The notes beneath the pieces are model-generated. The model was not told the DNA's origin and searched no databases. It saw only the letters and a list, made by a program, of their open reading frames with translations. Positions 1,118-63,515 of a DNA stretch of 64,000 nucleotides are shown here, piece after piece. The position numbers and the translations under genes are program-made. Source of the stretch: a virus. Location: positions 21,672 through 85,671 of the IMG/VR virus record IMGVR_UViG_3300029922_000042, one strand, 5' to 3'. The first letter of the stretch is position 1; each line of letters begins with the position of its first letter.

Positions 1118-2104
1118 ATGAAGAATGTAGCATTGCCTGATTTGGAGAAACGGACTAGAAACTTATTTCAATCAGGAAAATTAGTACAAGTACATGTCAG
1201 TAAATGGAGTATGATGGTAGGAGCAGATACCAAGGATTTAGGAATCGAGGAAAAAGATAGTAAAATCCCGGCATTTGTGACTATTGGAAAGAAAGCACTT
1301 TTTACTGATGAAGTTAGGTTGGTTTTTTCAAGAATAGAATCGGCAGCCAGGGCATACTTGATCCACAATTCACATCAATATCCAATAGCTGATGCTCATT
1401 TTGTCCCCACCAAGCTGTTAGAGAAGGTTAGTATAGAATTGGATAAGTACCGAGCCGAGTTTTTCAAGCAAGTTGATAATCTTATTACTAATTACGAAGT
1501 ATACAAACAACAAATGCTGGACAAGTACCCGGATTATGAAGATAATCTGTTACCTTGTTATCTACCTATAAGTGAAGTTAGAAGCAGGTATAATTTTAGC
1601 ATAAGTTTGTATGAAGTAGCATTTCCGAAGAAGATGGATAAGGTGACAAGGACGGAAATTATTGCTCAAAATTTAGCAGCTGAAAAGGCCTCAGCTAAAT
1701 ATGAGGCACTAATGAAAGAACAATATCAGCATCATTTAACGCAAATGGAATCCTTTCTTAAAGAGAGTACTTTGGCGTTGCGTGGTGAGATAGTAAAGAC
1801 TTTCGAAGTGATGGCGCAAAAGATACAAAATAGAGAAGTTATTTCTGGTGCAAATTTAAAGACAATGAAGGCAGCTATTGATAGTTTTGATGCCTTGGAT
1901 TTTCTTGATGACCAGAAAGTTAAACAAAATCTGGCTATTGTAAAGAAGTTGATTAGTTCTGGAGCTGATTTTAAATCAGACGCTGAGATTGTGCAAAGGC
2001 TTAATACAGCCATTAATACTACCCTTGAAACTGCAAAATCCATTAGTGATATTGACACCTTGACCGGTGAGTATACTAGAAGATTGGATTTTGATGAACT
2101 ATGA
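1118..2104 (+). CDS. DUF3150-like protein
   Basis: 328 residues, largely helical, with long charged helices around residues 110-260. The N-terminal sequence (LVQVHVSKWSMMVGADTKDLG) and its place next to a Ycf46-type AAA ATPase match the DUF3150 family, which is commonly paired with MoxR-like AAA proteins; this is from memory and not searched. The last residues are RRLDFDEL, a variant of the C-terminal tail found on many small genes in this window. No catalytic motif was seen. Confidence 0.5.
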   Translation: MKNVALPDLEKRTRNLFQSGKLVQVHVSKWSMMVGADTKDLGIEEKDSKIPAFVTIGKKALFTDEVRLVFSRIESAARAYLIHNSHQYPIADAHFVPTKLLEKVSIELDKYRAEFFKQVDNLITNYEVYKQQMLDKYPDYEDNLLPCYLPISEVRSRYNFSISLYEVAFPKKMDKVTRTEIIAQNLAAEKASAKYEALMKEQYQHHLTQMESFLKESTLALRGEIVKTFEVMAQKIQNREVISGANLKTMKAAIDSFDALDFLDDQKVKQNLAIVKKLISSGADFKSDAEIVQRLNTAINTTLETAKSISDIDTLTGEYTRRLDFDEL

Positions 2105-2107
2105 ATT

Positions 2108-2470
2108 ATGGTAATATTTGAAGGAATGCCATACCCGTTAGATATGGTATATATTAAGTTGGCAGGTAAGACAGAAATTGTCAGTATTCCACTTTTTGAA
2201 GCAGTGGCAATTCTAAATAATGCTTCTTTTGATTATAACGGTAGTAAGGCAAAATCAATAGAAAAAGGAGTTGAAACTTATGTCTTTAAAGGTGATACTA
2301 GTAAGGAAAAGAACAAGGTATTCGTAGTGCCTAAAGAAAAGCTTAGAATAACGTTAGAAGCAGATATTTACGATAACAACAAAGCAGATAGAATAACAGA
2401 TTTAGCTATACAACCAATGGATGAGTTGTTGGTTAATGAAGTAAAAAAATTAATTGAAATTCAACAATAA
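2108..2470 (+). CDS. Unknown small protein in the Ycf46 cluster
   Basis: 120 residues starting MVIFEGMPYPLDMVYIKL; mixed beta/alpha composition, no cysteine and no recognised motif. It begins 3 nt after the DUF3150-like gene and precedes the DUF1257-like gene, so it is probably co-expressed with them. Confidence 0.65.
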   Translation: MVIFEGMPYPLDMVYIKLAGKTEIVSIPLFEAVAILNNASFDYNGSKAKSIEKGVETYVFKGDTSKEKNKVFVVPKEKLRITLEADIYDNNKADRITDLAIQPMDELLVNEVKKLIEIQQ

Positions 2471-2488
2471 ACAACACATAAATAACAT

Positions 2489-2881
2489 ATGTCACACACT
2501 GTAAAAATCAACACTCAATTCAAAACCGAATTCATGACCTCTTTTCAAAGAGCGCTTACACATTTCGGTTGGAAGATTGAAAACGACAGCAAAATCAACA
2601 CTTATCCTAGTGACCCGGCTAGAAATGAGGTTTATCCAATGGTGGCCAAAAACCCCAATAATGGATATGATATCGGAATGAAGTTGAACGAGACTACCGG
2701 AGAAATCGAACTGTACGGTGATTTCTATGATGGTAGCATCTCCAAGACTTTGGGTAGTAACTGTGAAGCATTGAAGCAGGAGTATGGTTGCTGTGTCATT
2801 GAAGACAAACTAGCTTATGAAGGCTATGTTGCGACCCGGCATGTCCAGGAAAATGGCATTGTCGATATTTACGCTGAATAA
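2489..2881 (+). CDS. DUF1257 / Ycf35-like protein
   Basis: 130 residues starting MSHTVKINTQFKTEF, matching the MSH(F/T)..I.T...... start of DUF1257 (Ycf35) proteins, with the conserved GW (residues about 28-29) and a YDIGMKLN segment. Members of this family are often encoded near Ycf46 ATPases and DUF2997 proteins, which is the arrangement here. The biochemical role is unknown. Leader ACAACACATAAATAACAT has no Shine-Dalgarno sequence. Confidence 0.75.
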   Translation: MSHTVKINTQFKTEFMTSFQRALTHFGWKIENDSKINTYPSDPARNEVYPMVAKNPNNGYDIGMKLNETTGEIELYGDFYDGSISKTLGSNCEALKQEYGCCVIEDKLAYEGYVATRHVQENGIVDIYAE

Positions 2882-2884
2882 GCT

Positions 2885-3265
2885 ATGGTGAATACTGCTA
2901 CACAGAAGCAGGGGCAGCAAGGAGCATGGGGTAATACTCATGCTCCTTCCAAGCCTTTACACAAAAAATATGAAGTTGGCCTGTCTGATAAGTTAAAGAG
3001 CAGGGTTGCTAATTTAATTCTTAATTACTTCTTGTTTGAACAGCCACCAGCACAAAGTATTAAACTGGTTGACAATTCTTTGCGTCAATTAGATGAAGTT
3101 AATAATGTCTGGGCTGCTAGTGTACAAACAATAGTATATTATAAGAAGATAGCTCCTAGAGTACATACTTCTAGAGTAAGATTCCGCATCCTGTGTGAAA
3201 AAGATATCACTAACATCGAAACATCAAAAATTAACATCCACAAAAACCAAGTAATATTTATATGA
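2885..3265 (+). CDS. Unknown protein in the Ycf46 cluster
   Basis: 126 residues. A Gln/Gly/Thr-rich, probably disordered N-terminus (MVNTATQKQGQQGAWGN) leads into a more ordered, basic C-terminal part (VRFRILCEKDITNIE). No recognised motif. It overlaps the next start by 4 nt (ATGA), so translation is probably coupled. Confidence 0.65.
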   Translation: MVNTATQKQGQQGAWGNTHAPSKPLHKKYEVGLSDKLKSRVANLILNYFLFEQPPAQSIKLVDNSLRQLDEVNNVWAASVQTIVYYKKIAPRVHTSRVRFRILCEKDITNIETSKINIHKNQVIFI

Positions 3266-3468
3266 ACAAACCAAAAATTCACTTCCAAATTGCCAAAGAC
3301 GGTAACGTTACTGTCATGGACGTTAAGGGAGCAGGCACTAGTTGTCTGGAAACTACTTCAGGTATCGAAAAGGCGTTGGGTATTGTAGACGAGAAGTCTC
3401 GGGCTACTAATGCCAGTGCTTATGAAGACCCTGAACAGATTAAACTCGAAAATACCATCACTGAATGA
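3262..3468 (+). CDS. DUF2997-like protein
   Basis: 68 residues. The pattern I.F.I..DG.V...V.G..G..C......IE.ALG is that of DUF2997, which accompanies DUF1257 and Ycf46 in cyanobacteria, plastid genomes and phages. The single Cys (residue 29) in GAGTSCLETT is the conserved family position as I remember it. Translationally coupled on both sides by 4-nt overlaps. Confidence 0.7.
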   Translation: MNKPKIHFQIAKDGNVTVMDVKGAGTSCLETTSGIEKALGIVDEKSRATNASAYEDPEQIKLENTITE

Positions 3469-3746: not shown

Positions 3747-4193
3747 ATGAAAATAACTAAAAGAGGTAATAGATGGTATGACGAAAATAATAATAGTTGG
3801 ATAACTGAAGAATCAGCTACTCTATACTCACCTACCCTAACTAATTGTATATGGTGTAGAGATTGTAGTGATTGTATTAATTGTAGTTATTGTAGTCATT
3901 GTATTAGTTGTATTAGTTGTAGTGATTGTAGTTATTGTAGTGGTTGTAGTAATTGTAGTAGTTGTAATAATTGTAGTCGCTGTATTAATTGTAGTAGTTG
4001 TAGTTATTGTGTTGATTGTAATGATTGTAGAGATTGTATTAGTTGTAGGTATTGTAGAGATTGTAGTTACTGTGAATCAATTTATGATCTGAGTAATAAG
4101 ATAAGTTTTGCAGCCCAATTTAAGGATAGACAAGAACCAACTATTAGGGTGGAAATAGATATTAATGATAGAAAACTGGAACCAGATTTGTAG
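3747..4193 (+). CDS. Cys-x-x triplet-repeat protein, copy 1
   Basis: 148 residues in three parts. The N-terminal cap of about 30 residues (NRWYDENNNSWITEE, then YSPTLTNC) is followed by about 26 consecutive triplets with Cys at every third residue (residues about 32-109), the other positions being mostly Ser, Asn, Asp, Ile, Tyr or Arg. The C-terminal domain ends in DINDRKLEPDL. Each neighbouring pair of triplets forms a CxxC motif, so metal binding or disulfide stacking is plausible but untested. I cannot name the family. The repeat is encoded by near-periodic 9-nt DNA (TGTAGTRAT-like), which also explains long spurious frames on both strands here. It directly precedes the SbcD-like gene. Confidence 0.9.
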   Translation: MKITKRGNRWYDENNNSWITEESATLYSPTLTNCIWCRDCSDCINCSYCSHCISCISCSDCSYCSGCSNCSSCNNCSRCINCSSCSYCVDCNDCRDCISCRYCRDCSYCESIYDLSNKISFAAQFKDRQEPTIRVEIDINDRKLEPDL

Positions 4194-4208: not shown

Positions 4209-5342
4209 ATGAGTGAAAAAATAGTATTTAATTTAAACAAACCCAGCCCAACTTTTATAGCTAGTGCAGATATTCATTTAGGTAAGAAATTGTATAATTT
4301 CCCTGAACTTGAAGAAGATTTACGAGATAATTTTGTGAGACTAGTAGAATTAGCTATTGAAAAAGATGTACGGTATTTAATTATTGCTGGTGATCTATTT
4401 GAGGATAATAATTATACCAAACCACATACTATAGCCTTCATAGCTAAATTAGTGGCAAAATTAGCCTTACATGACATTAAACTGATAGGAATTGCAGGAG
4501 ATCATGATAAGCCCTTAAAAGGTGAAGCCTGGATAAGAATTAGTGATATTCTACCAGTTACTATAGAACCATCTTTTACTGGATTGGACTATTTTGATTA
4601 CTCTTATGTAACTGTCGATGAATTAGTTACAGCTCTTACAGGAGATAAAAATCCTGAAAATATTAAGTGGATTTTCCTACATTGTCAATTTCCACAGTTA
4701 TTCAAGATGGCAGAACCCAAGAAACTAATAGATTTCAATAAACTTGAGTTATTTAAGAATTTCCCTAATTTACAAGGTATAATAGCTGGAGACATTCATT
4801 CCGGTCCTGAAACCAAGGCTTATGGTGTTAATAGAGAGGCTTATGTAGGTTATACTGGTAGTTTGGGTATAACGGATATAGCTGAGTCTAGAACTGTAAA
4901 GTCAGTGTTATATTGTGATGGAAAGAATCTAATTAGACTTCCATTCCAGCAAAGAAGAGCCTGGAAAGAAATTAATTTTCAAGGAGAGGCAGCTGTAAAT
5001 TTTGATGTTTCAGCTGAGTTAGAATGGATAAATAAAGAAAAATTTAAACCAGTTTTGAAAATAAACTGGGACAATAATAGTGACCCTTATATAAATAAAT
5101 TAACAGCCTTATATGAAGCGGCATTGGTTAAATTACAACAACATCCAATTGGTTCGTTAACAAATGATGAATGTGAAGAAGTACTGACTAGTCGATCAGA
5201 TATTACTACTGACGTTAAAATTGAAAAAGCTCTACATTCTTGCTGTGATGGGGATGAGGATTTATATACCTTATCTTTATCTTTGTTAAATAATGATGTC
5301 AAAGACACATTAGACCAATTTAAAGCCAAATATGAATTATGA
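4209..5342 (+). CDS. SbcD/Mre11-like metallophosphoesterase nuclease subunit
   Basis: 377 residues. The calcineurin-like nuclease motifs are in order: SADIHLG (about 19-25), IIAGDLFED (about 59-67), GDHDK (about 97; GNHD is usual), FLHCQ (about 157) and AGDIHSG (about 193-199). With the SbcC/Rad50-like protein encoded downstream it should form a dsDNA-end processing nuclease, equivalent to T4 gp46/gp47 in recombination-dependent replication. The GDHD form is a small deviation from the family consensus. It overlaps the next gene by 4 nt. Confidence 0.88.
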   Translation: MSEKIVFNLNKPSPTFIASADIHLGKKLYNFPELEEDLRDNFVRLVELAIEKDVRYLIIAGDLFEDNNYTKPHTIAFIAKLVAKLALHDIKLIGIAGDHDKPLKGEAWIRISDILPVTIEPSFTGLDYFDYSYVTVDELVTALTGDKNPENIKWIFLHCQFPQLFKMAEPKKLIDFNKLELFKNFPNLQGIIAGDIHSGPETKAYGVNREAYVGYTGSLGITDIAESRTVKSVLYCDGKNLIRLPFQQRRAWKEINFQGEAAVNFDVSAELEWINKEKFKPVLKINWDNNSDPYINKLTALYEAALVKLQQHPIGSLTNDECEEVLTSRSDITTDVKIEKALHSCCDGDEDLYTLSLSLLNNDVKDTLDQFKAKYEL

Positions 5343-5839
5343 GCAGGCCGGGTTATTGGAAAACAAAAGATGCTGGTGAAATACCTTATAGTATAATGGA
5401 AAATAGCCACGTTAAACATGCATTACGGTACTTACGCAAGACTATATTAGCTACAGATACTAAGCCGAATTATAGAGTATATTGTGAAGGTAAGTTAATA
5501 GAGTTAGGAGAAGAAGCACAAAGAAGAGGTATAATTACTTCAGAAGATATAACTACTGATGCATTAATGGCTCAGATAGAGGTGTGGCAAACTGAATGGG
5601 ATAGTAGACGAACTGTGATGCCAGTTATACAAAGTTCAATTCATACTCCATCTAATATTGATTTAAGTAATATATTTAATACAATACCAACTCCTATTAG
5701 TATATATAAACCACGCATTTCAGTTATTATAGATGTGGATAAAGAGTTAAGTAGAGTGACTGGTTTAAGAATATACAACCCTAATAAAGAATATGATGAG
5801 GGAATGTTCATTAATAGGAGATTGGATATGGAACTATGA
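5339..5839 (+). CDS. Unknown protein between SbcD and SbcC, with shared C-terminal tail
   Basis: 166 residues. The N-terminal stretch GYWKTKDAGEIPYSIMENSHVKHALRYL resembles small phage proteins with a TKDGxxIxxxxMxxxHLxNxLxxL pattern; the middle is Ile/Thr-rich. It ends in INRRLDMEL, a member of the shared tail family. Coupled by ATGA overlaps to the genes before and after. Confidence 0.7.
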   Translation: MSRPGYWKTKDAGEIPYSIMENSHVKHALRYLRKTILATDTKPNYRVYCEGKLIELGEEAQRRGIITSEDITTDALMAQIEVWQTEWDSRRTVMPVIQSSIHTPSNIDLSNIFNTIPTPISIYKPRISVIIDVDKELSRVTGLRIYNPNKEYDEGMFINRRLDMEL

Positions 5840-6006
5840 ACACAGATGATTATGATTTAATAGAACGGATTATTGTAGTAGGTGATCGACTAGTTAATTA
5901 TATTGATTATCCTCCAGATAAATATGAAGCTAAAGCATTGGAAGATTGGAAAGAAGCTACTAGAATATTTAGATCAATTATAGAAGAAAATAAAAGAAAT
6001 CTATGA
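5836..6006 (+). CDS. Small acidic helical protein
   Basis: 56 residues starting MNTDDYDLIERIIVVGDRL. It starts at ATG 5836 within the stop of the previous gene and its stop (TGA 6004-6006) overlaps the next start. The tight overlaps on both sides support it as real. Helical and charged; function unknown. Confidence 0.6.
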   Translation: MNTDDYDLIERIIVVGDRLVNYIDYPPDKYEAKALEDWKEATRIFRSIIEENKRNL

Positions 6007-6398
6007 CAATAACAAAAAGAGATAATAGATGGTATGATGAAAACAATAATAGTTGGAATACTGAAGAAGCAGCTACTATCTATTCACCTACTCTAACTAA
6101 TTGTAGTAATTGTAGTGATTGTATAGGTTGTAGTGATTGTACTGATTGTAGTTATTGTAGAGATTGTAGCTATTGTAATAATTGTAGTGATTGTAGTAGT
6201 TGTAGAGATTGTATTTATTGTAGTAGTTGTATTAATTGTAGTAGTTGTAGAGATTGTAGTAATTGTAGAAGTTGTATTGATTGTAGTAGTTGTAGTAGTT
6301 GTAGTTATCATGGTGATTGGATTGATGATAAGAAATATATACCAGAAGTTAGACCGTTTATAGATTGTAGAGATAGACTATTAGACCCTTATTTATGA
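6003..6398 (+). CDS. Cys-x-x triplet-repeat protein, copy 2
   Basis: 131 residues with the same cap as copy 1 (NRWYDENNNSWNTEEAAT), about 23 Cys triplets (residues about 31-98), and a C-terminal part with the YxPEVRPFIDCRDRLL sequence ending DPYL. This C-terminal type (PFIDC..RLL) is shared with the copies at 40150, 52227, 53173 and 55333. It lies inside the SbcD-SbcC operon, which suggests recent insertion or a role tied to that operon. Confidence 0.88.
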   Translation: MTITKRDNRWYDENNNSWNTEEAATIYSPTLTNCSNCSDCIGCSDCTDCSYCRDCSYCNNCSDCSSCRDCIYCSSCINCSSCRDCSNCRSCIDCSSCSSCSYHGDWIDDKKYIPEVRPFIDCRDRLLDPYL

Positions 6399-35004: not shown

Positions 35005-35078
35005 GGTCTGGAAGCATTAAAGTGATGCAGAGAACTCTTAATTCTCAGAATAGGGAGCGTTACCCTAGCAGACCACCA
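35005..35078 (+). tRNA. tRNA-Lys(CTT)
   Basis: Acceptor GGTCTGG/GCAGACC with one G-G mismatch next to the D arm, D arm GCAT/ATGC, anticodon stem GAGAA/TTCTC with loop CTCTTAA, T arm TAGGG/CCCTA, discriminator A and encoded CCA. Reads AAG. Confidence 0.87.
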
Positions 35079-45415: not shown

Positions 45416-45868
45416 ATGAAGATAACAAAACGAGAAGATAGATGGTATGACGAAAACGGTAATAGTTGGTCTACAGAAGAACTAGCTACTAGATACTCTC
45501 CTACTCTAACCAATTGTAGTAATTGTAATAATTGTAATTATTGTAGAGATTGTAGTTATTGTAGTAGTTGTATTTATTCTAATGGTTGTAGTAGTTGTAG
45601 TGAGTGTAATGGTTGTAGGAATTCTCTTAATTGTATTAGTTGTAATTGGTGTAGTAGTTGTGGTAGTTGTAATAGTTGTATTAGTTGTAGTGTTTGTAGT
45701 CTTTGTAGAGATTGTACTTATTGTAGTAATTGTAATAATTGTAGAAAATGTGAAAATTGTTATTTCGTTAGTAGTCTTGAAAATTACGCCCCACTTCTTA
45801 AATTTGAACCATCTTCAACTAGACCAGAATTAGATATTAATGATAGAAAACTAGAACCAGACTTATGA
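45416..45868 (+). CDS. Cys-x-x triplet-repeat protein, copy 6
   Basis: 150 residues. Cap DRWYDENGNSWSTEELAT, about 26 Cys triplets with two Cys-to-Ser positions (IYS and RNS), then CENCYFVSSLENYAPLLKF and tail DINDRKLEPDL. The last 128 nt (45741-45868) are nearly identical to those of the copy at 48134, only three differences seen, so recent exchange or duplication is likely. Confidence 0.88.
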   Translation: MKITKREDRWYDENGNSWSTEELATRYSPTLTNCSNCNNCNYCRDCSYCSSCIYSNGCSSCSECNGCRNSLNCISCNWCSSCGSCNSCISCSVCSLCRDCTYCSNCNNCRKCENCYFVSSLENYAPLLKFEPSSTRPELDINDRKLEPDL

Positions 45869-47684: not shown

Positions 47685-48137
47685 ATGAAACGACCTACAA
47701 GAAAAGCAACATTAGAAGATTCAGTAACGTATATTCTAGCAGAGATTAAAGAATTAGAAGCTTGTCAATATCTGCTTACGCAGATCATTTATAAACTTAC
47801 TAATGATTATGCACCGGATGATACTCTTTCTGATAGTGTAGCTAAGATAACTGAAAGAATAACTCGTAAAAAGTGCAGGCTGTTTGAACAATTAGCCACA
47901 ATTTCTGTTCTTAGCCCAACTGCTGAAGCTAAGTTAAAACAAAGATTAATCGATAAATTAAATAAATCTGGTTCATATTTCAGCAATTTTGTTAATCAAT
48001 CTTGGACTGATATCTCTACCAACCCTGAAGAATTAAAGCAAACTATAAAAGATCAGATGAGTAAAGCATTACAAGTAAGAGAGGATGAGGTAGATATGAT
48101 AGCAGTACCTAAAAGGAAGTTAGAACCAGATCTATGA
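47685..48137 (+). CDS. Helical protein with shared tail
   Basis: 150 residues, helical throughout (LAEIKELEACQYLLTQIIYKL), basic N-terminus MKRPTRKATLED, ending AVPKRKLEPDL. A tail-family member, not a Cys-repeat protein, directly followed by two Cys-repeat genes with ATGA overlaps. A-rich leader (three CCATAAAA units). Confidence 0.65.
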   Translation: MKRPTRKATLEDSVTYILAEIKELEACQYLLTQIIYKLTNDYAPDDTLSDSVAKITERITRKKCRLFEQLATISVLSPTAEAKLKQRLIDKLNKSGSYFSNFVNQSWTDISTNPEELKQTIKDQMSKALQVREDEVDMIAVPKRKLEPDL

Positions 48138-48589
48138 AGATAACTAAACGAGAAAATGATAGATGGTATGACGAAAACAATAATAGTTGGGAAACTAAAA
48201 AATTAGCTACTTTACACTCACCTACCCTAACTAATTGTAGTTGGTGTGGTGGTTGTAGAGATTGTAGAGATTGTAGAGATTGTAGAGATTGTAGAGATTG
48301 TAGTAATTGTAGTGATTGTAGTAATTGTAGTTGGTGTGGTGGTTGTAGTTATTGTATTTGTTGTAATCAGTGTATAAGTTGTAGTTATTGTAGTGGTTGT
48401 AGTAATTGTAGTTATTGTAGTCATTGTAATAATTGTAGTGATTGTGGTTATTGTCATTATTGTAGAAAATGTGAAAATTGTTATCTCGTTAGTAGTCTTG
48501 AAAATTACGCCCCACTTCTTAAATTTGAACCATCTTCAACTAGACCAGAATTAGATATTAATGATAGAAAACTAGAACCAGATCTATGA
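48134..48589 (+). CDS. Cys-x-x triplet-repeat protein, copy 7
   Basis: 151 residues. Cap DRWYDENNNSWETKKLAT, about 28 triplets, including five identical RDC triplets in a row (48250-48299, a perfect 9-nt tandem repeat) and the block CICCNQCISCS shared with the copy at 60526. C-terminal domain nearly identical to copy 6; tail DINDRKLEPDL. Confidence 0.88.
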   Translation: MKITKRENDRWYDENNNSWETKKLATLHSPTLTNCSWCGGCRDCRDCRDCRDCRDCSNCSDCSNCSWCGGCSYCICCNQCISCSYCSGCSNCSYCSHCNNCSDCGYCHYCRKCENCYLVSSLENYAPLLKFEPSSTRPELDINDRKLEPDL

Positions 48590-48960
48590 AGATAACTAAA
48601 CGAGAAAATGATAGATGGTATGACGAAAACAATAATAGCTGGGATAGTGAAGAACTAGCTACTTTCTATTCACCTACCCTAACTACTTGTAGTTATTGTA
48701 GTGGTTGTAGTTATTGTAGTAATTGTAGTAGTTGTAGAGATTGTAGTTATTGTAATCTTTGTAATGATTGTACTCGTTGTACTAATTGTGATTATTGTGA
48801 TAATTGTAGTCATTGTGGTTATTGTAGTGATTGTAGTGATTGTTTAGGTTTATATAATTATCGAGATAAAGAAAATTTAGAACCTCAAGTAAGAATATTA
48901 CCTCCAACATCAAGAATAGAATTAGATATTAATGATAGGAAATTAGAACCAGACTTATGA
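48586..48960 (+). CDS. Cys-x-x triplet-repeat protein, copy 8
   Basis: 124 residues. Its N-terminal 48 nt repeat the start of copy 7 almost exactly. About 18 triplets only, then a different C-terminal domain (LYNYRDKENLEPQVRILPP) and the tail DINDRKLEPDL. Tandem to copy 7 with an ATGA overlap. Confidence 0.88.
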   Translation: MKITKRENDRWYDENNNSWDSEELATFYSPTLTTCSYCSGCSYCSNCSSCRDCSYCNLCNDCTRCTNCDYCDNCSHCGYCSDCSDCLGLYNYRDKENLEPQVRILPPTSRIELDINDRKLEPDL

Positions 48961-52226: not shown

Positions 52227-52634
52227 ATGACAATAACAAAAATAGCTAATAGATGGTATGACGAAAACAATAATAGCTGGTTATCAGAAGAAGCAGCTAC
52301 TCAATACTCACTTACCCTAACTAATTGTAGTAGGTGTAGTGATTGTAGTAATTGTATTGATTGTAGAGATTGTAGTAATTGGTGTAGTAATTGTAATAAT
52401 TGTAGAGATTGTAGTTATTGTATATATTGTAGTGATTGTAGTTATTGTATATATTGTATTGATTGTAATATTTGTAGTGATTGTAGTAGTTGTATTAATT
52501 GTAGTAATTGTAGTGATTGTAGAGATTGTAGTAGTTGTATTGATTGTAGTGATTGTACTAATAATAAGAAGTATGAACCAGTAACTAGACCATTTATAGA
52601 CTGTACTAACAGACTATTAGAACCAGATTTATGA
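52227..52634 (+). CDS. Cys-x-x triplet-repeat protein, copy 9
   Basis: 135 residues. Cap NRWYDENNNSWLSEEAAT, about 26 triplets with one four-residue unit (CSNWC) that shifts phase, C-terminal TRPFIDCTNRLLEPDL. The final 92 nt (52543-52634) are identical to the end of copy 10 at 53513-53604. Confidence 0.88.
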   Translation: MTITKIANRWYDENNNSWLSEEAATQYSLTLTNCSRCSDCSNCIDCRDCSNWCSNCNNCRDCSYCIYCSDCSYCIYCIDCNICSDCSSCINCSNCSDCRDCSSCIDCSDCTNNKKYEPVTRPFIDCTNRLLEPDL

Positions 52635-53172: not shown

Positions 53173-53604
53173 ATGACAATAACAAAAAGAGCTGATAGAT
53201 GGTATGACGAAAACGGTAATAGTTGGATAACTGAAGAACTAGCTACTACTGACTCTCCTACCCTAACTAATTGTTATAATTGTAGAGGTTGTAGTAATTG
53301 TAGAGATTGTAGTTATTGTATATATTGTAGTGATTGTAGTAATTGTATTAGTTGTATTAGTTGTAGTGATTGTAGTAATTGTAGTAATTGTTATAGTTGT
53401 ATTGATTGTAGTAATTGTAGTGATTGTTATAGTTGTAGAGATTGTAGTAGTTGTATTGATTGTAGTAGTTGTAGTGGTTGTAGAGATTGTAGTAATTGTA
53501 ATAATTGTATTTATTGTAGTGATTGTACTAATAATAAGAAGTATGAACCAGTAACTAGACCATTTATAGACTGTACTAACAGACTATTAGAACCAGATTT
53601 ATGA
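53173..53604 (+). CDS. Cys-x-x triplet-repeat protein, copy 10
   Basis: 143 residues. Cap DRWYDENGNSWITEELAT, about 29 uninterrupted triplets, C-terminal TRPFIDCTNRLLEPDL as in copy 9. Its start overlaps a tail-like remnant (LEPDL frame followed by ATGA) that belongs to no intact gene. Confidence 0.88.
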   Translation: MTITKRADRWYDENGNSWITEELATTDSPTLTNCYNCRGCSNCRDCSYCIYCSDCSNCISCISCSDCSNCSNCYSCIDCSNCSDCYSCRDCSSCIDCSSCSGCRDCSNCNNCIYCSDCTNNKKYEPVTRPFIDCTNRLLEPDL

Positions 53605-54446
53605 AAGCACATTGGATCATAGAAAATTTTACAGATTCGGAGGATTACAGGGATTTAATTAAAGCAGTAAAAGATTTAGGCAAGGAATGCTTTGTAATAG
53701 ATAAACGTAATCATTTTGATTTTAATCCTGCCTCATTTGTGGAAAATGAATGTGTAATAGTTCAAGGGTCAATTCAAATGGTTAAGAATATAGAATCTAG
53801 GTTACCTAAAAATTGCTTTCCCATCAAATATTGCACCTTCAACAATTATCTTTGCTCGGTTTACTATCCTAAATTAAAAGACTTCCTATTTAATGATAAG
53901 TATGTATTACTTCCGCTAAAAGAACTTAAAGAGAATAAGTTTGATTATTATCAGAAGTTTGGAAAAGAAGCACTTATATTTGTAAGACCGGATAGTGGAG
54001 AAAAGACATTTCAAGCCCAACTCTTAGATTTGCAGGATTTCGACAGATTTTGGACTAACTCTATAGCTTCCAGTACTTTAGATGATGATTTAGTACTAGT
54101 TTCTACGCCTAAAGATATAATAGGTGAGTGGCGTTTTATATGTTCAAAGTATAACGATGGGGAAATCATAACTCAATCTACTTATCGATATCAAGGCAAG
54201 TTATGTTATATACCTGCTGCACCTGTTAAAGCAACTGAACTTTGTAAAAATATATTAAAGGTTCAATATTACCCAGACTCTGTTTTTTGCATAGATATCT
54301 GCCAGGCTGGGGATAACAAGTTCTATTTATTAGAATTAACCTCCTTTTCTAGTGCTGGTCTATATGCTACCGATAAAAAGAAGATAGCAACTAGAGTAAG
54401 TGAAATAACCGAATTTGAATATGGAAGAGAAATATTCTATAGGTGA
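53601..54446 (+). CDS. ATP-grasp-domain protein
   Basis: 281 residues. LIFVRPDSGEKTF (about 122-134), IGEWRFICSKY (about 174-184) and DICQAGDNKFYLLELTSFSSAG (about 232-253) follow the ATP-grasp order, close to DUF4343-type phage proteins. ATP-grasp enzymes ligate carboxylates to amines or thiols; substrate here is unknown. Overlaps the Cys-repeat gene before it and the small barrel gene after it. Confidence 0.7.
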   Translation: MKAHWIIENFTDSEDYRDLIKAVKDLGKECFVIDKRNHFDFNPASFVENECVIVQGSIQMVKNIESRLPKNCFPIKYCTFNNYLCSVYYPKLKDFLFNDKYVLLPLKELKENKFDYYQKFGKEALIFVRPDSGEKTFQAQLLDLQDFDRFWTNSIASSTLDDDLVLVSTPKDIIGEWRFICSKYNDGEIITQSTYRYQGKLCYIPAAPVKATELCKNILKVQYYPDSVFCIDICQAGDNKFYLLELTSFSSAGLYATDKKKIATRVSEITEFEYGREIFYR

Positions 54447-54663
54447 TCTTGTTGAATTATTAAATTTAGGTGAAGGGGAGATCGTCTCTATAAAAAACAC
54501 TTATTATCATATGAGAATGTTGAATCATGTATCTATTGGTAAACGTGATTTAGATCCGGGAGATATACTTAATGTGTGGCCTGACGAAATAGTAAAAAAG
54601 ATAGTAATTCTAAGACCTGATTATAGTAACTTAGATGAAAGAAGAATTGATATTGAATTATGA
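54421..54663 (+). CDS. Small IGD barrel-like protein with shared tail
   Basis: About 80 residues from ATG 54421 (an in-frame ATG at 54415 is also possible). MEEKYSIGDLVELLNLGEGEIVSI is barrel-like; it ends NLDERRIDIEL, a tail variant with Ile in place of Leu. Overlaps the ATP-grasp gene by 26 nt. Confidence 0.65.
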   Translation: MEEKYSIGDLVELLNLGEGEIVSIKNTYYHMRMLNHVSIGKRDLDPGDILNVWPDEIVKKIVILRPDYSNLDERRIDIEL

Positions 54664-54908
54664 ATGATTATAAGGTAGGTGATGTGATTGAGGCTTTTTA
54701 TGTAGCATCTATTTATTGTACAGGTAAAATAGTAGAATTTAAGTTTAAGGGAGTTCTCATACGTATACTAGAAGACATGAATTACAATGATATAATATGT
54801 TATCCTAGTAATACACAGTTATTTCTCCCATTTGAAAATATCATAGGGTTTAGTCAACTTATTAGAACAGAAAACATATATGAACGAAACCTTGACCCAT
54901 ATTTATAA
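54660..54908 (+). CDS. Small VGD barrel-like protein with shared tail
   Basis: 82 residues; MNDYKVGDVIEAFYVASIYCTGKI, ending NIYERNLDPYL. The DNA for the tail also encodes the first residues of the next protein in another frame (ATG 54880), a 29-nt dual-coding overlap. Confidence 0.68.
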   Translation: MNDYKVGDVIEAFYVASIYCTGKIVEFKFKGVLIRILEDMNYNDIICYPSNTQLFLPFENIIGFSQLIRTENIYERNLDPYL

Positions 54909-55146
54909 TATAGGTGATGAAGTTAGTGGGAATTATGCACAATTAGCTGAGTTTAAAGGATTTATAGTATCATATAAATTTTATTTCAATAAACCTTGGT
55001 ATTATGTACAGCTAACTGAACGCATATTTATACACAAAGAATTACCTATAGGTTGGATCATAGCTGTTTCAGAGATGGAAATTAAGGAAGTTAAAAAATT
55101 AAGAAAAGAAAACATATATGAGCGAAACCTTGACCCATATTTATAA
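54880..55146 (+). CDS. Small IGD barrel-like protein starting in the previous tail
   Basis: 88 residues starting MNETLTHIYNIGDEVSGNY and ending NIYERNLDPYL. The start lies 29 nt inside the previous gene, so its first nine codons are read from the same DNA as the previous C-terminal tail. The next gene repeats the trick, pointing to tandem duplication of the unit. Confidence 0.65.
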   Translation: MNETLTHIYNIGDEVSGNYAQLAEFKGFIVSYKFYFNKPWYYVQLTERIFIHKELPIGWIIAVSEMEIKEVKKLRKENIYERNLDPYL

Positions 55147-55336
55147 TATAGGTGATGAGGTGGCATTTTATAGAGGTACTCATAGGTTTGAAGGTAGAAT
55201 AATAAATAGCGCAGCATTTCATGATCATTGGTGTGTTCAATTATTGAACTCTAAATTTATGTCAGTACATAAACAATGTTGTAATAAAATTAGAAAAGAA
55301 AATCCTTTAGATAGGAAACTAGAGCTTGATTTATGA
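55118..55336 (+). CDS. Small IGD barrel-like protein, second tail-overlapping copy
   Basis: 72 residues starting MSETLTHIYNIGDEVAFYRG, ending NPLDRKLELDL. The first 15 residues match those of the gene at 54880 at 14 positions, but the body differs. Again starts 29 nt within the previous gene. Confidence 0.65.
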   Translation: MSETLTHIYNIGDEVAFYRGTHRFEGRIINSAAFHDHWCVQLLNSKFMSVHKQCCNKIRKENPLDRKLELDL

Positions 55337-55890
55337 CAATAACTAAAAGAGATAATAGATGGTTTGACGAAAACAATAATAGCTGGGATAGTGAAGAAGA
55401 AGCTACTCTATACTCACCTACCCTAACCGATTGTACTAGTTGTTTTAATTGTTATAGTTGTATTGATTGTAGTAGTTGTATTGATTGTAGAGATTGTAGT
55501 AGTTGTATTGATTGTAGTAATTGTAGAGATTGTACTAGTTGTGATAGTTGTAGTGGTTGCATTGATTGTAGTGGTTGTGTTGATTGTAGAGATTGTAGTG
55601 GTTGTAGTGGTTGTATTTATTGTATATATTGTAGTGATTGTAGTGAGTGTTATGGATGTAGAGATTGTAGTAATTGTAGTAATTGTTATAGTTGTATTGA
55701 TTGTAGTAATTGTAGTGATTGTAGAGATTGTAATAATTGTAGAGATTGTAGTAGTTGTATTGATTGTAGAGATTGTAGTTATTGTAGTAGTTGTATTGGT
55801 TGTAATGACTGGACTAATAACATGAAATATGAACCGGTAATTAGACCATTTATAGACTGTACTAACAGACTATTAGAACCAGACTTATGA
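55333..55890 (+). CDS. Cys-x-x triplet-repeat protein, copy 11 (longest)
   Basis: 185 residues. Cap NRWFDENNNSWDSEEEAT, about 42 uninterrupted Cys triplets (residues about 32-158), the largest repeat of the fourteen, then the PFIDCTNRLLEPDL end. If the repeat forms an extended structure its length scales with triplet number, so this copy would be about 3.5 times as long as the one at 57472. Confidence 0.88.
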   Translation: MTITKRDNRWFDENNNSWDSEEEATLYSPTLTDCTSCFNCYSCIDCSSCIDCRDCSSCIDCSNCRDCTSCDSCSGCIDCSGCVDCRDCSGCSGCIYCIYCSDCSECYGCRDCSNCSNCYSCIDCSNCSDCRDCNNCRDCSSCIDCRDCSYCSSCIGCNDWTNNMKYEPVIRPFIDCTNRLLEPDL

Positions 55891-56129
55891 CACAAAAGGA
55901 ATATAAAGTAGGAGATGTGGTTGATTTTGAGGTTAGTAATTTGAAAGGAATAGGAACTATAACACCATATAATGGAGACATAATGTATGCTGTAATTATA
56001 GAGGAATTTCCCGGTATACCTAGTAGAACTAAATGGCATATATTTCCTGATGAAATAACAGGTATACATGTTGAACCTAGAATAGAATTTGACATCACAA
56101 AAGATAGAAGATTAGAGTTAGAACTATGA
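55887..56129 (+). CDS. Small VGD barrel-like protein with shared tail
   Basis: 80 residues; MTQKEYKVGDVVDFEVSNLKGIGTI and the P..TKWHIFPDEI stretch, ending ITKDRRLELEL. Coupled by 4-nt overlaps to the Cys-repeat gene before it and the barrel gene after it. Confidence 0.68.
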   Translation: MTQKEYKVGDVVDFEVSNLKGIGTITPYNGDIMYAVIIEEFPGIPSRTKWHIFPDEITGIHVEPRIEFDITKDRRLELEL

Positions 56130-56380
56130 ATGAATTTGAAGAAGGAATGAAAGTTATAGTTACTTTTTATAGCGGTAATAAAGCTGTAGGAATAATAATA
56201 TGGTATGCTGATGATACTTCCTATGAAGTTGAAGTCTTGCATTATACAGAAATTAATGATAAAGAGAAAACGGTGGAGACATTTCCAAATCCTTATAGTA
56301 ACATTAACTTCATAAATACCGAAGCAATACCAAGTAGAACAGAGAATCCTTTTGATAGAAAATTGGAACCAGATCTATGA
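56126..56380 (+). CDS. Small barrel-like protein with shared tail
   Basis: 84 residues; MNEFEEGMKVIVTFYSGNKAVGIII (EGM in place of VGD) and VEVLHYTEIND resemble the gene at 33022 (VKFVEYTEL). It ends NPFDRKLEPDL, identical in style to 33022's NPFDRKLEFDL. Coupled by ATGA on both sides. Confidence 0.68.
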   Translation: MNEFEEGMKVIVTFYSGNKAVGIIIWYADDTSYEVEVLHYTEINDKEKTVETFPNPYSNINFINTEAIPSRTENPFDRKLEPDL

Positions 56381-56628
56381 GTGAATATAAAGTAGGAGAT
56401 GTTGTAGTTTATTGGTCTATTAGTTCTAACTCAGAGGCAGTTGCTAAGATAGTCGAAACCGATTGGACTAGTTTTAATTATTTAAGGGTAATTATAATAA
56501 AACATGATCATCTTAGTGCAGGTACATCAATTTATTTAACAGAGAGTGAAATAATAAGATTGGACGGTCCCATTATAAAACACTGTTTTGATATTATGTT
56601 AGATAGAAGATTAGATTTGGAACTATAA
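56377..56628 (+). CDS. Small VGD barrel-like protein with shared tail
   Basis: 83 residues; MSEYKVGDVVVYWSISSNSEAVAKI, ending IMLDRRLDLEL. Last gene of this run; a 132-nt non-coding, pyrimidine-rich gap follows. Confidence 0.68.
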   Translation: MSEYKVGDVVVYWSISSNSEAVAKIVETDWTSFNYLRVIIIKHDHLSAGTSIYLTESEIIRLDGPIIKHCFDIMLDRRLDLEL

Positions 56629-57471: not shown

Positions 57472-57795
57472 ATGACAATAACAAAAAGAGCTGATAGATG
57501 GTATGACGAACGAGGTAATAGTTGGTTATCAGAAGAATTAGCTACTTTATACTCACCTACCTTAACTAATTGTAGTTATTGTGATGATTGTAGTAATTGT
57601 AGAAATTGTAGTAGTTGTAGTAATTGTAGTAGTTGTAGAGATTGTATTAGTTGTTATGATTGTAACGATTGTAAATATGTCTGTTGCCTGACAGACAGAA
57701 CAAGATTTACTGCTCAATTCGAACCTGCTACAGAAGATACTATAATAAGACCTGAACTTGACATTAATAATAGAAGACTTGAAATTGAACTATGA
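57472..57795 (+). CDS. Cys-x-x triplet-repeat protein, copy 12 (shortest)
   Basis: 107 residues. Cap DRWYDERGNSWLSEELAT, only about 12 Cys triplets, then CKYVCCLTDRTRFTAQFEP and tail DINNRRLEIEL. The C-terminal ending EDTIIRPELDINNRRLEIEL is shared with the copy at 59112. Confidence 0.87.
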   Translation: MTITKRADRWYDERGNSWLSEELATLYSPTLTNCSYCDDCSNCRNCSSCSNCSSCRDCISCYDCNDCKYVCCLTDRTRFTAQFEPATEDTIIRPELDINNRRLEIEL

Positions 57796-58058
57796 ATGAA
57801 TTTAATATAGGTGACATTATTTCTGTAACATTTACTTTTTCTGGTAATCAAGCTATTGGTGTTGTAATTGACGATGATAATTTTATGATCACGTCTTATA
57901 CTAAAGTACTTAAACCAGACTATGTAGTTAAAGGTTTATCAGACCGTGAACCTCTTTATGGATGTAATATAAGGAATATTCAACTAGTATCACGGAGTAT
58001 TAGACAAGAAGTTAGACAAGAAGACCCATTTTCCCGTAACCTAGACCCATATCTATGA
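57792..58058 (+). CDS. Small IGD barrel-like protein with shared tail
   Basis: 88 residues; MNEFNIGDIISVTFTFSGNQAIGVVI, ending DPFSRNLDPYL. Close to the genes at 33022 and 56126 (NEF/NEY start, SGN, NPF/DPF end). ATGA overlaps. Confidence 0.68.
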   Translation: MNEFNIGDIISVTFTFSGNQAIGVVIDDDNFMITSYTKVLKPDYVVKGLSDREPLYGCNIRNIQLVSRSIRQEVRQEDPFSRNLDPYL

Positions 58059-58917: not shown

Positions 58918-59115
58918 ATGGCTCAATTAATAATAAAGAATATTACCATGAATCAAGCCAAAGTATTAGCTAGTTACTACCAAAGACAAGGGGAACAACA
59001 CGCTGAAGTATGGTTTGAAGACAGAAACGAAGAAACACCAATAGTAGATGTATCAAAATGTCCTTGGTTAATAGTAGATGAAAAAGAAGAAACTGTAACT
59101 ATTATTTGTAAATGA
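58918..59115 (+). CDS. Small unknown protein
   Basis: 65 residues from ATG 58918 (the longer frame starts inside tRNA-Leu). MAQLIIKNITMNQAKVLASYYQ, then VDVSKCPWLIVDEKEET: alpha/beta. Unknown function. Coupled to the next Cys-repeat gene. Confidence 0.6.
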   Translation: MAQLIIKNITMNQAKVLASYYQRQGEQHAEVWFEDRNEETPIVDVSKCPWLIVDEKEETVTIICK

Positions 59116-59444
59116 AACTAACAAAACGAGAAAATGATAGATTCTATGATGAAAACAATAATAGTTGGATAACAGAACAACTAGCTACTGTATATTCACC
59201 TACGCTGATTAATTGTAGATATTGTAGTGATTGTAGTAATTGTAGTAATTGTAGTAGTTGTATTAGTTGTTATATATGTGTTAATTGTAGTAATTGTAGT
59301 GAGTGTTATAGATGTAGAGATTGTATTAGTTTGTATAGACATTACAACGAAGAAAAATTAAAACCTCAGAAGTATGACACTGAAGATACTATAATAAGAC
59401 CTGAACTTGACATTAATAATAGAAGACTTGAAATTGAACTATGA
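59112..59444 (+). CDS. Cys-x-x triplet-repeat protein, copy 13
   Basis: 110 residues. Cap DRFYDENNNSWITEQLAT (Phe replaces the usual Trp), about 13 Cys triplets, then a C-terminal domain ending DINNRRLEIEL. Directly precedes the AAA ATPase gene with ATGA overlap. Confidence 0.87.
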   Translation: MKLTKRENDRFYDENNNSWITEQLATVYSPTLINCRYCSDCSNCSNCSSCISCYICVNCSNCSECYRCRDCISLYRHYNEEKLKPQKYDTEDTIIRPELDINNRRLEIEL

Positions 59445-60525: not shown

Positions 60526-60993
60526 ATGAAACTAACAAAAAGATATAATAGATGGTATGACGAAAATTATAATAGTTGGGATACTGAAGAATCAGCTACT
60601 CAATACTCACCTACCCTAACTAATTGTAGTAGGTGTAGTGATTGTAGATATTGTAGTCTTTGTAATTATTGTAGTAATTGTAGTAATTGTAATGATTGTA
60701 TTACTTGTATTAATTGTAGTGATTGTACTCGTTGTATTAATTGTAGAGGTTGTATTTGTTGTAATCAGTGTATAAGTTGTAGTGATTGTAGTAATTGTAG
60801 TAGGTGTACTAGTTGTAATCGTTGTAGCGGTTGTAGCGGTTGTAGTGATTGTACTCGTTGTATTGATTGTAGTTGGTGTAGTTTACTTATAGATAGAATA
60901 AGATTTTTCCCACAAACTGGCCCTGACAACTCGGAACTAATAACTAGAAAAGAAATAGCATTAACAGATCGAAATCTGGAACCATTTTTATGA
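60526..60993 (+). CDS. Cys-x-x triplet-repeat protein, copy 14
   Basis: 155 residues. Cap NRWYDENYNSWDTEESAT, about 29 triplets including CICCNQCISCS (shared with copy 7), then a distinct C-terminal domain (LLIDRIRFFPQTGPDN) and tail ALTDRNLEPFL. Starts 9 nt after tRNA-Ser. Confidence 0.88.
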   Translation: MKLTKRYNRWYDENYNSWDTEESATQYSPTLTNCSRCSDCRYCSLCNYCSNCSNCNDCITCINCSDCTRCINCRGCICCNQCISCSDCSNCSRCTSCNRCSGCSGCSDCTRCIDCSWCSLLIDRIRFFPQTGPDNSELITRKEIALTDRNLEPFL

Positions 60994-61712: not shown

Positions 61713-61877
61713 ATGAAACCAGACAAAAAGAAGAAAGACCTTTTAATGCTACTATGCGTTATTGGTGGGATGAGCTTGTTTGCAGGCATGACACATACCC
61801 CAATACTATTAGTAGCAATTCCGGTTTACCTTTATCTCTATCTAGACGACCTTGATAAAGATATCAATGAAGATTAA
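61713..61877 (+). CDS. Membrane micropeptide 3
   Basis: 54 residues: Lys-rich start (MKPDKKKKDLL), two hydrophobic segments (LLMLLCVIGGMSLFAGM and ILLVAIPVYLYLYL) and an acidic C-terminus (DDLDKDINED). Preceded by 64 nt of non-coding, A/T-rich DNA. Confidence 0.5.
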   Translation: MKPDKKKKDLLMLLCVIGGMSLFAGMTHTPILLVAIPVYLYLYLDDLDKDINED

Positions 61878-61883
61878 CACAAA

Positions 61884-62468
61884 ATGAACAATAAACTAAC
61901 TGTATTTTTAGACTTGGATGGCACTATTGTAGACTGGTTGGATAAGATGAGAAAAGAATGTAAATTACCAATCAGTGCATTTACTCAATTTTATGAGAAT
62001 CCAGACTCTCTAACTGAGGAAGCAATTACTGAATTATTTGGAGGAGAAAATAAATTTCGCAAACTAATGTATAACAGAAGTGCTAAATTCTGGTATACTC
62101 TTGATAGCTTTTGGTGGATGGAATATCTGATAGTCCAGTTAAAAAATAACTTTAATGAAGTTGCCTTCTTTACTAGCCCTGGAGATAACCCTGAAGCTGG
62201 GAAGGGTAAGATTTTATGGCAACAAAAGCATTATCCAGAGATTCCTCTTATTATGGGGAAACACAAGCATTTATGTGCTGGTCCTAATAAAGTATTAATA
62301 GATGATAACTATAGGAAGATTGGTAGGTTTATTGAATATGGAGGTTATGGCATTCTTTGGCCTAATCAGTTTCATGTAGCTAAGTTTAATGCCGGTAGAA
62401 CGTACTCACTTATTTCTGATATAGTAGCTGAAATTCTAGCTTACCAGAAATACCATACCTTGATTTAA
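61884..62468 (+). CDS. HAD-superfamily 5'(3')-deoxyribonucleotidase-like phosphatase
   Basis: 194 residues. Motif I FLDLDGTIVDW (Asp10 and Asp12), motif II AFFTSPGDNP, motif III Lys in GKHKHLCAGP and motif IV VLIDDNYRKIG. This layout matches NT5C-type dNMP phosphatases and phage nucleotide-metabolism HAD enzymes; a polynucleotide 3'-phosphatase role is an alternative. Follows the membrane peptides by 6 nt. Confidence 0.8.
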   Translation: MNNKLTVFLDLDGTIVDWLDKMRKECKLPISAFTQFYENPDSLTEEAITELFGGENKFRKLMYNRSAKFWYTLDSFWWMEYLIVQLKNNFNEVAFFTSPGDNPEAGKGKILWQQKHYPEIPLIMGKHKHLCAGPNKVLIDDNYRKIGRFIEYGGYGILWPNQFHVAKFNAGRTYSLISDIVAEILAYQKYHTLI

Positions 62469-62469
62469 T

Positions 62470-63141
62470 ATGTCTGACCTCATTTTTAGTCGTGAAGTGC
62501 TTAAGTTGAATAAAAATCATTTACCTATAGGATTCTTCACGCCTAAAGATGTATTTACAGCTTTGGCTAATTATATGGTTGATAGAAGACAGAACTATAT
62601 ACTGGATGTTAAAGGTAATAAAATGCGCAAGATGCTGGCTTATGATATTACTTATGAACAGATAGATGATGACCTATACGACTTCTCCAAACTTCTTAAT
62701 ATGCGGGTAGTTGACTGGGATGAATGGATAACCTTGCCAGTAAGGAGTTATGATCTATTCGTACATACCCCTAACCTTGTAGTAAGAGTGCCTAGAGTAG
62801 TTGTAAGTCTGGCTTGTGAAGAAATGCCTAAAGTTCGATATAATACTAGCTTAAAATCTGTTTATAACCTGTATGAAGGTATTTGTCAGATAAGTAAGAA
62901 AAGATTAACAATGAAGGAGGCTAGTCGTGATCATGTAATACCTGTCTCTAAAGGTGGCGAAAATAAGCTAAATAACATCATCTTGGTCGATAGATGTATT
63001 AATAGCAGAATGGGTAATAAGTATAAACATGAGTTAGGATTGCCAGAGATTAAACCTAAAACCCCTAAAACCATGCCGGTAAAAGATACATTAAGAAATA
63101 TTAAAGGTGTTCCGGAATGGGAATACTGGTTAAAAAGATGA
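62470..63141 (+). CDS. HNH nuclease
   Basis: 223 residues. N-terminal LNKNHLPIGFFTPKDVF and a beta domain, then an HNH core SRDHVIPVSKGGENKLNNIILVDRCINSRMGNK (about 154-186) without the usual CxxC pair; only Cys136 and Cys179 are near. Similar in layout to phage and cyanobacterial small HNH endonucleases. Could be a homing endonuclease or a replication or packaging-associated nuclease. Overlaps the next gene by 4 nt. Confidence 0.72.
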   Translation: MSDLIFSREVLKLNKNHLPIGFFTPKDVFTALANYMVDRRQNYILDVKGNKMRKMLAYDITYEQIDDDLYDFSKLLNMRVVDWDEWITLPVRSYDLFVHTPNLVVRVPRVVVSLACEEMPKVRYNTSLKSVYNLYEGICQISKKRLTMKEASRDHVIPVSKGGENKLNNIILVDRCINSRMGNKYKHELGLPEIKPKTPKTMPVKDTLRNIKGVPEWEYWLKR

Positions 63142-63515
63142 GTACTATATTAAAGAGTGAATATCTTTATAATGATAATGATAATCATGATAAAGTATAT
63201 AATGTGACGCTAAAAGAAGTGGAAGGACAAATCACAACAGGTACAGTTATTGATTTTGTAGTTACTGCCGAATATGGTAGGAGAGGTTCGGTTTTAAAGA
63301 CCATAACTAAATATGATGGCATTAGCTATGGTAAAGCTAAAGAAATTTATACATCTTTAATAGCAGAAAAAATAGCCAAAGGTTACAATAAAGGACCTAA
63401 AAGAAAGAAGGTCAAATCCGAACCTGAATTGAAACCTAAACTGAAACCAAAGAAGTTGGAAACCCAGGAGCTAAACGATGTACCTTTTAGAAGATTAGAC
63501 TTTGGTGACTTATGA
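63138..63515 (+). CDS. WGR-domain protein with shared tail variant
   Basis: About 125 residues from ATG 63138 (overlapping the previous stop). The segment VIDFVVTAEYGRRGSVL followed by SYGKAKEIYTSLIAEKIAKGY matches the WGR domain found in DNA-repair and poly(ADP-ribose) polymerase-related proteins. A Lys/Pro/Glu-rich linker (EPELKPKLKPKK) precedes the C-terminus PFRRLDFGDL, close to RRLDFDEL of the 1118 gene. Confidence 0.65.
   Translation: MSTILKSEYLYNDNDNHDKVYNVTLKEVEGQITTGTVIDFVVTAEYGRRGSVLKTITKYDGISYGKAKEIYTSLIAEKIAKGYNKGPKRKKVKSEPELKPKLKPKKLETQELNDVPFRRLDFGDL

Follow-up and report, generated by a model that had tools for sequence, protein, structure and literature searches.

Short C-terminal tags that address many proteins are known from several systems, among them PTS1, the cargo peptides of encapsulins and HbYX docking. 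Here we describe a C-terminal peptide, or tail, shared by 32 genes in a 64,000-nucleotide (nt) stretch of phage DNA, hereafter the window, which comprises bases 21672-85671 of an incomplete 85.7-kb phage record (IMG/VR virus IMGVR_UViG_3300029922_000042) and to which all coordinates refer unless another locus is named. The evidence set out below leads us to regard this tail as probably a docking tag for a receptor of the phage lineage. The same phage is also present on two longer contigs, G004 (151 kb) and G008 (127 kb), which have a structural block in common, and the overlaps of the three would imply a full genome of at least about 212 kb. Its gene content includes RNA-polymerase beta/beta' pieces, UvsX, a DNA polymerase and 15 tRNAs, and signal peptides ending in AQ or GQ suggest a Bacteroidota host.

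A shared C-terminal peptide on unrelated proteins

A preliminary description of the window had listed 32 stops that follow a common ending, and all of them read back correctly. Thirty carry the strict motif R-[KRNL]-[LI]-[DE]-x-[DEYF]-L at the C-terminus, and the genes that stop at 2104 and 63515 end in the variants RRLDFDEL and RRLDFGDL, respectively. In the 117 genes called in the window, the strict motif stands at the C-terminus 30 times and is absent from internal positions. A scan of all open reading frames of at least 40 amino acids (aa) with a loose form, [RK].[LI][DE]..[LIMFV], gave 31 matches on the + strand and none on the - strand, and 200 composition-preserving shuffles gave a mean of 0.02 C-terminal loose matches, with a maximum of one. 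The extra loose match (3465-3692, ...VRVIESRL) looks coincidental, because its homologues in the related phages G031 and G032 keep the same ending and the G015 protein extends beyond it.

The tailed proteins of the window are small (72-185 aa), and the 30 with the strict motif comprise 14 members of a Cys-repeat family, the very number counted in the preliminary description, nine small barrel-like 'KxGDxV' proteins and seven singletons. Sixteen more tailed genes, with further body families, lie in the right arm of G008, and a single one, a member of the Cys-repeat genes, lies near the structural block (G004 74342). For the phage as a whole (window, G004 and G008) the total is about 47 tailed proteins from at least about 14 unrelated families. 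A profile over 53 distinct tails gives the core [DNE]-R-[KRNL]-L-[DE]-[PLI]-[DEYF]-L, often with R-x-E at about -15 before it; the R at position -7 is invariant and position -6 is R, K, N or L. The tail spans 7-16 residues and has no transmembrane segment, and the tailed proteins, read by eye, show no signal peptide. The genes concerned, together with those of an AAA+ ATPase cassette and one untailed candidate partner, are as follows.

55..660, + strand: AAA+ ATPase (PF00004), C-terminal part, degenerate tail EDRALDPFN; gene starts upstream of the window
1118..2104, + strand: DUF3150 protein (PF11348), tail variant TRRLDFDEL; tail Arg invariant in 19 phage DUF3150 proteins
2489..2881, + strand: DUF1257-like protein of the AAA cassette, untailed
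3262..3468, + strand: DUF2997 protein of the AAA cassette, untailed
3747..4193, + strand: Cys-repeat protein, tail NDRKLEPDL
5339..5839, + strand: 166-aa protein, tail NRRLDMEL; orthologues ERRLDTDL (G031) and DRNLSFEL (G032)
6003..6398, + strand: Cys-repeat protein, tail DRLLDPYL
32753..33025, + strand: 90-aa protein, tail ERRLEPYL
33022..33291, + strand: barrel-like protein, tail DRKLEFDL
33288..33755, + strand: Cys-repeat protein, tail DRKLEIDL
33752..34057, + strand: 101-aa untailed protein, between tailed genes in the window and in G015; weak candidate partner
34063..34485, + strand: 140-aa protein, tail TRKLDLEL; G031 homologue PRRLDPDL
34487..34927, + strand: 146-aa paralogue of the 34063..34485 gene, tail ERKLELDL
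34938..35354, + strand: 138-aa protein, tail ERKLEIDL
36944..37468, + strand: Cys-repeat protein, tail NRLLEPDL
40150..40557, + strand: Cys-repeat protein, tail DRLLDPYL
44185..44496, + strand: 103-aa protein, tail ERRLEIDL; G031 orthologue ERNLDTEL
45416..45868, + strand: Cys-repeat protein, tail DRKLEPDL
47685..48137, + strand: 150-aa, probably helical protein, tail KRKLEPDL; G031 orthologue KRELSPDL
48134..48589, + strand: Cys-repeat protein, tail DRKLEPDL
48586..48960, + strand: Cys-repeat protein, tail DRKLEPDL; AlphaFold model of low confidence, tail with no predicted fold
52227..52634, + strand: Cys-repeat protein, tail NRLLEPDL
53173..53604, + strand: Cys-repeat protein, tail NRLLEPDL
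54415..54663, + strand: barrel-like protein, tail ERRIDIEL
54660..54908, + strand: barrel-like protein, tail ERNLDPYL
54880..55146, + strand: barrel-like protein, tail ERNLDPYL; starts inside the preceding gene's tail DNA, in another frame
55118..55336, + strand: barrel-like protein, tail DRKLELDL
55333..55890, + strand: Cys-repeat protein, tail NRLLEPDL
55887..56129, + strand: barrel-like protein, tail DRRLELEL
56126..56380, + strand: barrel-like protein, tail DRKLEPDL; AlphaFold model of low confidence, three strands and an unstructured tail
56377..56628, + strand: barrel-like protein, tail DRRLDLEL
57472..57795, + strand: Cys-repeat protein, tail NRRLEIEL
57792..58058, + strand: barrel-like protein, tail SRNLDPYL
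59112..59444, + strand: Cys-repeat protein, tail NRRLEIEL
60526..60993, + strand: Cys-repeat protein, tail DRNLEPFL
63117..63515, + strand: 132-aa protein with weak WGR similarity, tail variant RRLDFGDL

Conservation of the ending is found at the level of the peptide. Tails from different families agree at 56% of residues, and matching residues share a codon at a frequency of 0.43, exactly the 0.43 expected from codon usage. The earlier impression that synonymous codons vary between copies while the peptide is kept can thus be put quantitatively. Within the Cys-repeat family the agreement of tail codons rises to 0.61 against 0.43 expected, as paralogues would show. Comparison with close phages, in which some pairs are paralogues, gave 15 synonymous and 9 nonsynonymous changes in 182 tail codons, 23 and 117 in 1114 codons of the non-Cys bodies, and 59 and 110 in 9389 codons of untailed genes; this contrast of tails with bodies, which the preliminary description had proposed, indicates that tails are kept while bodies change. 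The ends of the genes have a feature of their own, an ATGA present in 22 of the 30 tailed and 24 of the 87 untailed genes, which in 21 of the 22 is also the start of the next gene; it accounts for the restriction of the final Leu codon of the tail to TTA, CTA or TTG, the one departure from the agreement with codon usage. Within 54660-55336, barrel-like genes overlap by 29 nt, the same DNA encoding the tail of one gene and, in a different frame, the beginning of the following one (MNETLTHIYNIGDE / ERNLDPYL).

Between the window and G005, and likewise between G008 and G007, the Cys-repeat (CxxCxxC) bodies show extreme variation in length and sequence but retain their ends, and the untailed genes of these phages differ at no more than about 2% of their codons. 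Members of the family usually end in the tail. Two Cys-repeat proteins encoded on the - strand of L105 (G008; 11816-12211 and 5397-5930) are tailless, one ending in a predicted transmembrane helix and the other in a globular domain, and a Cys-repeat protein of the unrelated AT-rich phage G012 also has no tail. Since members of one family bear such different ends, the C-terminus is an exchangeable functional module, consistent with a role in location or docking. No bacterial homologue of the family was confirmed in 85k genomes.

Dialects of the tail in related phages

Relatives of the phage were located with its DNA polymerase, UvsX and AAA as queries, and several carry sets of tails in a form, or dialect, of their own. 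In G031, whose DNA polymerase is 74% identical, six small proteins follow R[RNE]L[DS][TP][DE][LI] (RRLDTEL, RRLDTDI, RELSPDL, RNLDTEL, RRLDPDL and RRLDTDL) and a seventh ends in the shortened RRLDPE. Five proteins of G032 (polymerase 63%) follow RN[LIV][ST][LF]xL (RNLSFEL, RNVTLSL, RNISLKL twice and RNITLTL), and seven small proteins of G015 (polymerase 56%) end in R[RKY]I[QS][LI], a pattern that was formulated after three of its matches had been seen and with which the rest were found. Two tails each are present in G033 and G034 (RKL[DE]I and RKL[SL]V), one of them on DUF3150. Control segments inside the same proteins gave a mean of 0-0.3 dialect matches, and no small-protein tails were found in ten other phages carrying the same AAA ATPase. 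Two scans of IMG/VR with tail-DNA patterns, made of fixed codons for one dialect and blind to the others, returned only this phage group and L128, apparently a chance match.

Four tailed genes with orthologues (5339-5839, 34063-34485, 44185-44496 and 47685-48137) switch dialect with the genome, and the tails of the window, G031 and G032 cluster by genome (label-permutation p = 0.0004). The codons for R and L differ between tail copies in the relatives too, and the tailed proteins of G015, AAA excepted, have no detectable homologue among the proteins of the window phage. A single receptor that co-evolves with its tags would be expected to yield just this, a concerted change of dialect in non-homologous genes whose codons differ.

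Some other genes recur beside the tailed ones. SbcD-like phosphoesterase and SbcC-like genes flank tailed, mutually non-homologous genes in the window phage (4209-5342 and 6409-8469) and in G015 (L171). A protein with weak similarity to the VWA domain, common to G008 (L104 14307-15119) and G015 (L173 1535-2308), lies near tailed genes in both and is a possible member of the AAA/DUF3150 network. One of 94 untailed phage proteins matches PF25186 (Tad4, a type I Thoeris inhibitor; E = 4e-11), which suggests an anti-defence gene. A promoter search yielded no clear class.

The AAA+/DUF3150 cassette and a possible partner of the tail

In distant phages, DUF3150 proteins and many of the AAA+ ATPases that partner them terminate in a shorter form of the motif, R-x-Φ-[DE]-Φ. 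The DUF3150 C-termini of these phages include KRMIDLS, KRSLDLS, KRKLDLT, KRRIEM, KRSLEF and similar sequences. The tail of the DUF3150 protein in the window aligns with 18 other phage DUF3150 C-termini in the motif R-x-hydrophobic-[DE]-hydrophobic, and its Arg, invariant in the 19 sequences, is one of three invariant columns of 294. AAA proteins of many phages end in KRRVQL, KRKVTL, KRSLEV, QRDIDL, VRVLDL and the like, and the C-termini at 33 AAA loci give 41 matches to the loose motif where 9.1 would be expected. In the window phage the AAA+ ATPase, which is Cdc48/p97-clade-like and ends at 660, bears the degenerate tail copy RRTEGNGEDRALDPFN. AAA and DUF3150 are non-homologous, and their shared ending therefore suggests a shared partner; the small-protein tails appear related to the DUF3150 motif through the pattern itself. 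When the cassette genes were searched across the 33 AAA loci, AAA was the one found with tails throughout. DUF3150 was not found in G015, although this phage has tails, so that the more parsimonious receptor would be AAA or its DUF1257/DUF2997 partners rather than DUF3150.

Just upstream of the window, an insert of about 307 nt (L003 ~5259-5565) splits the AAA ATPase gene exactly inside Walker A (VLLAG / IPGTGKT). A U precedes this insert and a G stands at its end; it is group I intron-like and has no Rfam match. At this same site in Walker A, the AAA gene of another phage (L153 ~6001) seems to hold a long in-frame insert that ends in THN and may be an intein.

We propose that the tail acts as a short C-terminal docking motif that requires a free carboxyl end and would recruit the small, fast-evolving proteins that bear it to one common receptor, most likely phage-encoded and co-evolving with the tag in each phage lineage. 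The AAA+/DUF3150 subunits would carry an older and shorter form of the motif. The bodies (Cys-repeat, small barrel and others) would be interchangeable modules with a target-binding role, probably aimed at the host, which the tail would connect to a common machine in the manner of PTS1, HbYX or adaptor tails in other systems. The receptor might be the AAA+ ATPase/DUF3150 complex, or the DUF1257/DUF2997 partners, an identification that we offer tentatively. We suggest, equally tentatively, a genome-wide address code, in which a lineage-specific tag inherited from the AAA+/DUF3150 machine has spread onto dozens of interchangeable target-binding proteins; were this true, the phage could evolve new host-takeover modules by tagging any small protein. 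The preliminary description had already put forward a sorting or docking tag. Its peptide-level tag is strongly upheld by codon neutrality, C-terminal exclusivity, non-homologous bodies and dialects that shift together; of the roles that it had suggested, virion packaging is disfavoured and a canonical sliding-clamp motif is not matched.

Several points weigh against this reading. We infer the existence of a single receptor, its encoding by the phage and its identity alike, and the partial Pfam/PHROGs scan of the phage found no receptor. The dialect of G015 is two residues shorter, so that homology of its tags with the others is deduced from position and pattern, and the genomes compared are incomplete contigs. 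The AlphaFold models of one barrel-like and one Cys-repeat tailed protein are too weak for interpretation. The AAA that we consider as receptor itself bears the tag motif, and several AAA phages that have no DUF3150 have an untailed AAA. The likeness of AAA and DUF3150 tails within a phage is fragile, with p = 0.003 to 0.08 according to the pairs admitted and 0.18-0.20 in the strictest subsets; a first value of p = 0.0005 for this covariation was reduced to suggestive on checking, because the DUF3150 assignments of two pairs were unverified.

Three rivals remain, of which a host receptor ranks first, followed by a degradation or delivery signal and then by virion packaging. A host protein such as the clamp, RNA polymerase, a chaperone or a nucleoid protein could read the tag, and the dialects could then track the hosts as these diverge. 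In its small size and acidic/hydrophobic character the tail resembles many short linear motifs, and the partial scan in which no phage receptor emerged would also agree with a host partner. However, fixation of the R-x-hydrophobic-[DE]-hydrophobic ending in DUF3150 across very distant phages argues for a partner that the phage itself carries, and the canonical bacterial clamp motif needs a Gln that none of the 53 distinct tails has at its core; no clamp family was found among the Pfam matches to 94 phage proteins. We consider a host receptor unlikely, and the sliding clamp named in the preliminary description disfavoured. A Pro stands at P-2 in 26 of the 53 distinct tails, which disfavours PDZ-type strand pairing, and no PDZ family was among the Pfam matches. 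Surface sorting signals (the C-terminal domain of the type IX secretion system, PEP-CTERM and LPXTG) do not fit, the tailed proteins, read by eye, having no signal peptide and the tail no transmembrane segment.

Under the second rival, tailed proteins would be passed, by themselves or carrying a captured target, to an AAA+ unfoldase or protease. The Cdc48/p97-clade-like ATPase at the core of the motif-linked cassette would suit such a role, C-terminal degrons need a free carboxyl end as in these tails, and the bodies diversify where the tails do not. Yet AAA and DUF3150 bear the motif, which would make both of them substrates, and the partial annotation shows no protease partner. The tail is also unlike an ssrA/ClpXP-type degron, with its LAA-like apolar end, since strict tails end in [DEYFN]-L. 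A degradation or delivery signal is in our view quite improbable.

Virion packaging, in which the tail would be a C-terminal equivalent to the capsid targeting sequence of T4 or to the cargo peptides of encapsulins, is in our view more improbable still. Such peptides are short and common to unrelated cargo, and it is generally known that many phages inject small proteins, but the structural blocks are free of tailed genes, the nearby G004 74342 being a Cys-repeat gene, and the tail is strictly C-terminal, which does not match a T4-type sequence. No encapsulin shell appeared in the partial annotation, in which no dedicated search for one was made. A different peptide, F-I-N-G-F-I-K-A-A, is common to several structural-side proteins at the N-terminus and is likely a capsid-targeting or prohead-protease propeptide. 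Examples of its carriers in the structural block of G004/G008 are L060 13832-14533, L061 4781-5575, L066 2427-3104 and L065 2118-2780, and G033 and G015 have ...NGFVKRA versions. Finally, we give next to no credence to a DNA- or RNA-level element at gene ends, either the recombination boundary for gene cassettes raised in the preliminary description or, at the ATGA overlap, a signal that couples translation. Despite the excess of ATGA among tailed genes and the codon agreement within the Cys-repeat family, between-family codon agreement at the codon-usage expectation removes both, 8 of the 30 window tails and most G031 tails (which end in TAA) have no ATGA, and the dialects shift at the amino-acid level.

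Comparison with known address tags

The functions of most accessory genes in large phages are not known. A tag common to about 47 proteins, with sets in several relatives, implies the same partner for all, whose identification would place every one of them in a pathway at once. The tails also offer a function-linked clue to the widespread, uncharacterised phage AAA+/DUF3150/DUF1257/DUF2997 cassette, and the joint switching of dialect by unrelated genes amounts to a natural experiment on how receptor and motif co-evolve. Other phages can be screened for such networks by a simple sequence rule, the enrichment of C-terminal k-mers within a genome. In the titles and abstracts of the open-access literature we found no description of a phage C-terminal address tag or of lineage dialects.

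Among known systems, PTS1 (SKL-COOH, read by PEX5) is likewise a very short C-terminal tag on dozens of unrelated proteins, with a free carboxyl end and, as we propose for the phage tail, one receptor. The phage tail differs in its seven-residue R-x-L-[DE]-x-x-L core, in its lineage dialects and in belonging to a phage genome with no organelle known. Encapsulin cargo-loading peptides are also short and usually C-terminal, and they choose the cargo of a protein compartment; they serve one or a few enzymes, whereas the tailed phage proteins are numerous, small and without recognisable enzyme domains. In HbYX docking, known from proteasomal ATPases and activators, a single partner is bound by the C-terminal tails of AAA+ subunits and of regulators unrelated to them, as we propose here, although the phage tail has no Hb-Y-X consensus and no peptidase ring was found in the phage. 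The bacterial clamp-binding motif (QL[SD]LF, QLxLxL-COOH) is short, sometimes C-terminal and similar in its Leu spacing; the phage tail is distinguished by its invariant Arg, an acidic residue, the frequent Pro at a hydrophobic position and the absence of Gln. The T4 capsid targeting sequence and the propeptides of jumbo phages are short address peptides common to many phage proteins, but these are N-terminal, cleaved and virion-directed, and the window phage seems to have its own version of them in FINGFIKAA. As for the cassette, the cyanobacterial AAA/DUF1257/DUF2997 set (Ycf46/Ycf35-like) has the same Pfam domains adjacent to one another, and to this set the phage version adds DUF3150 and the C-terminal tags.

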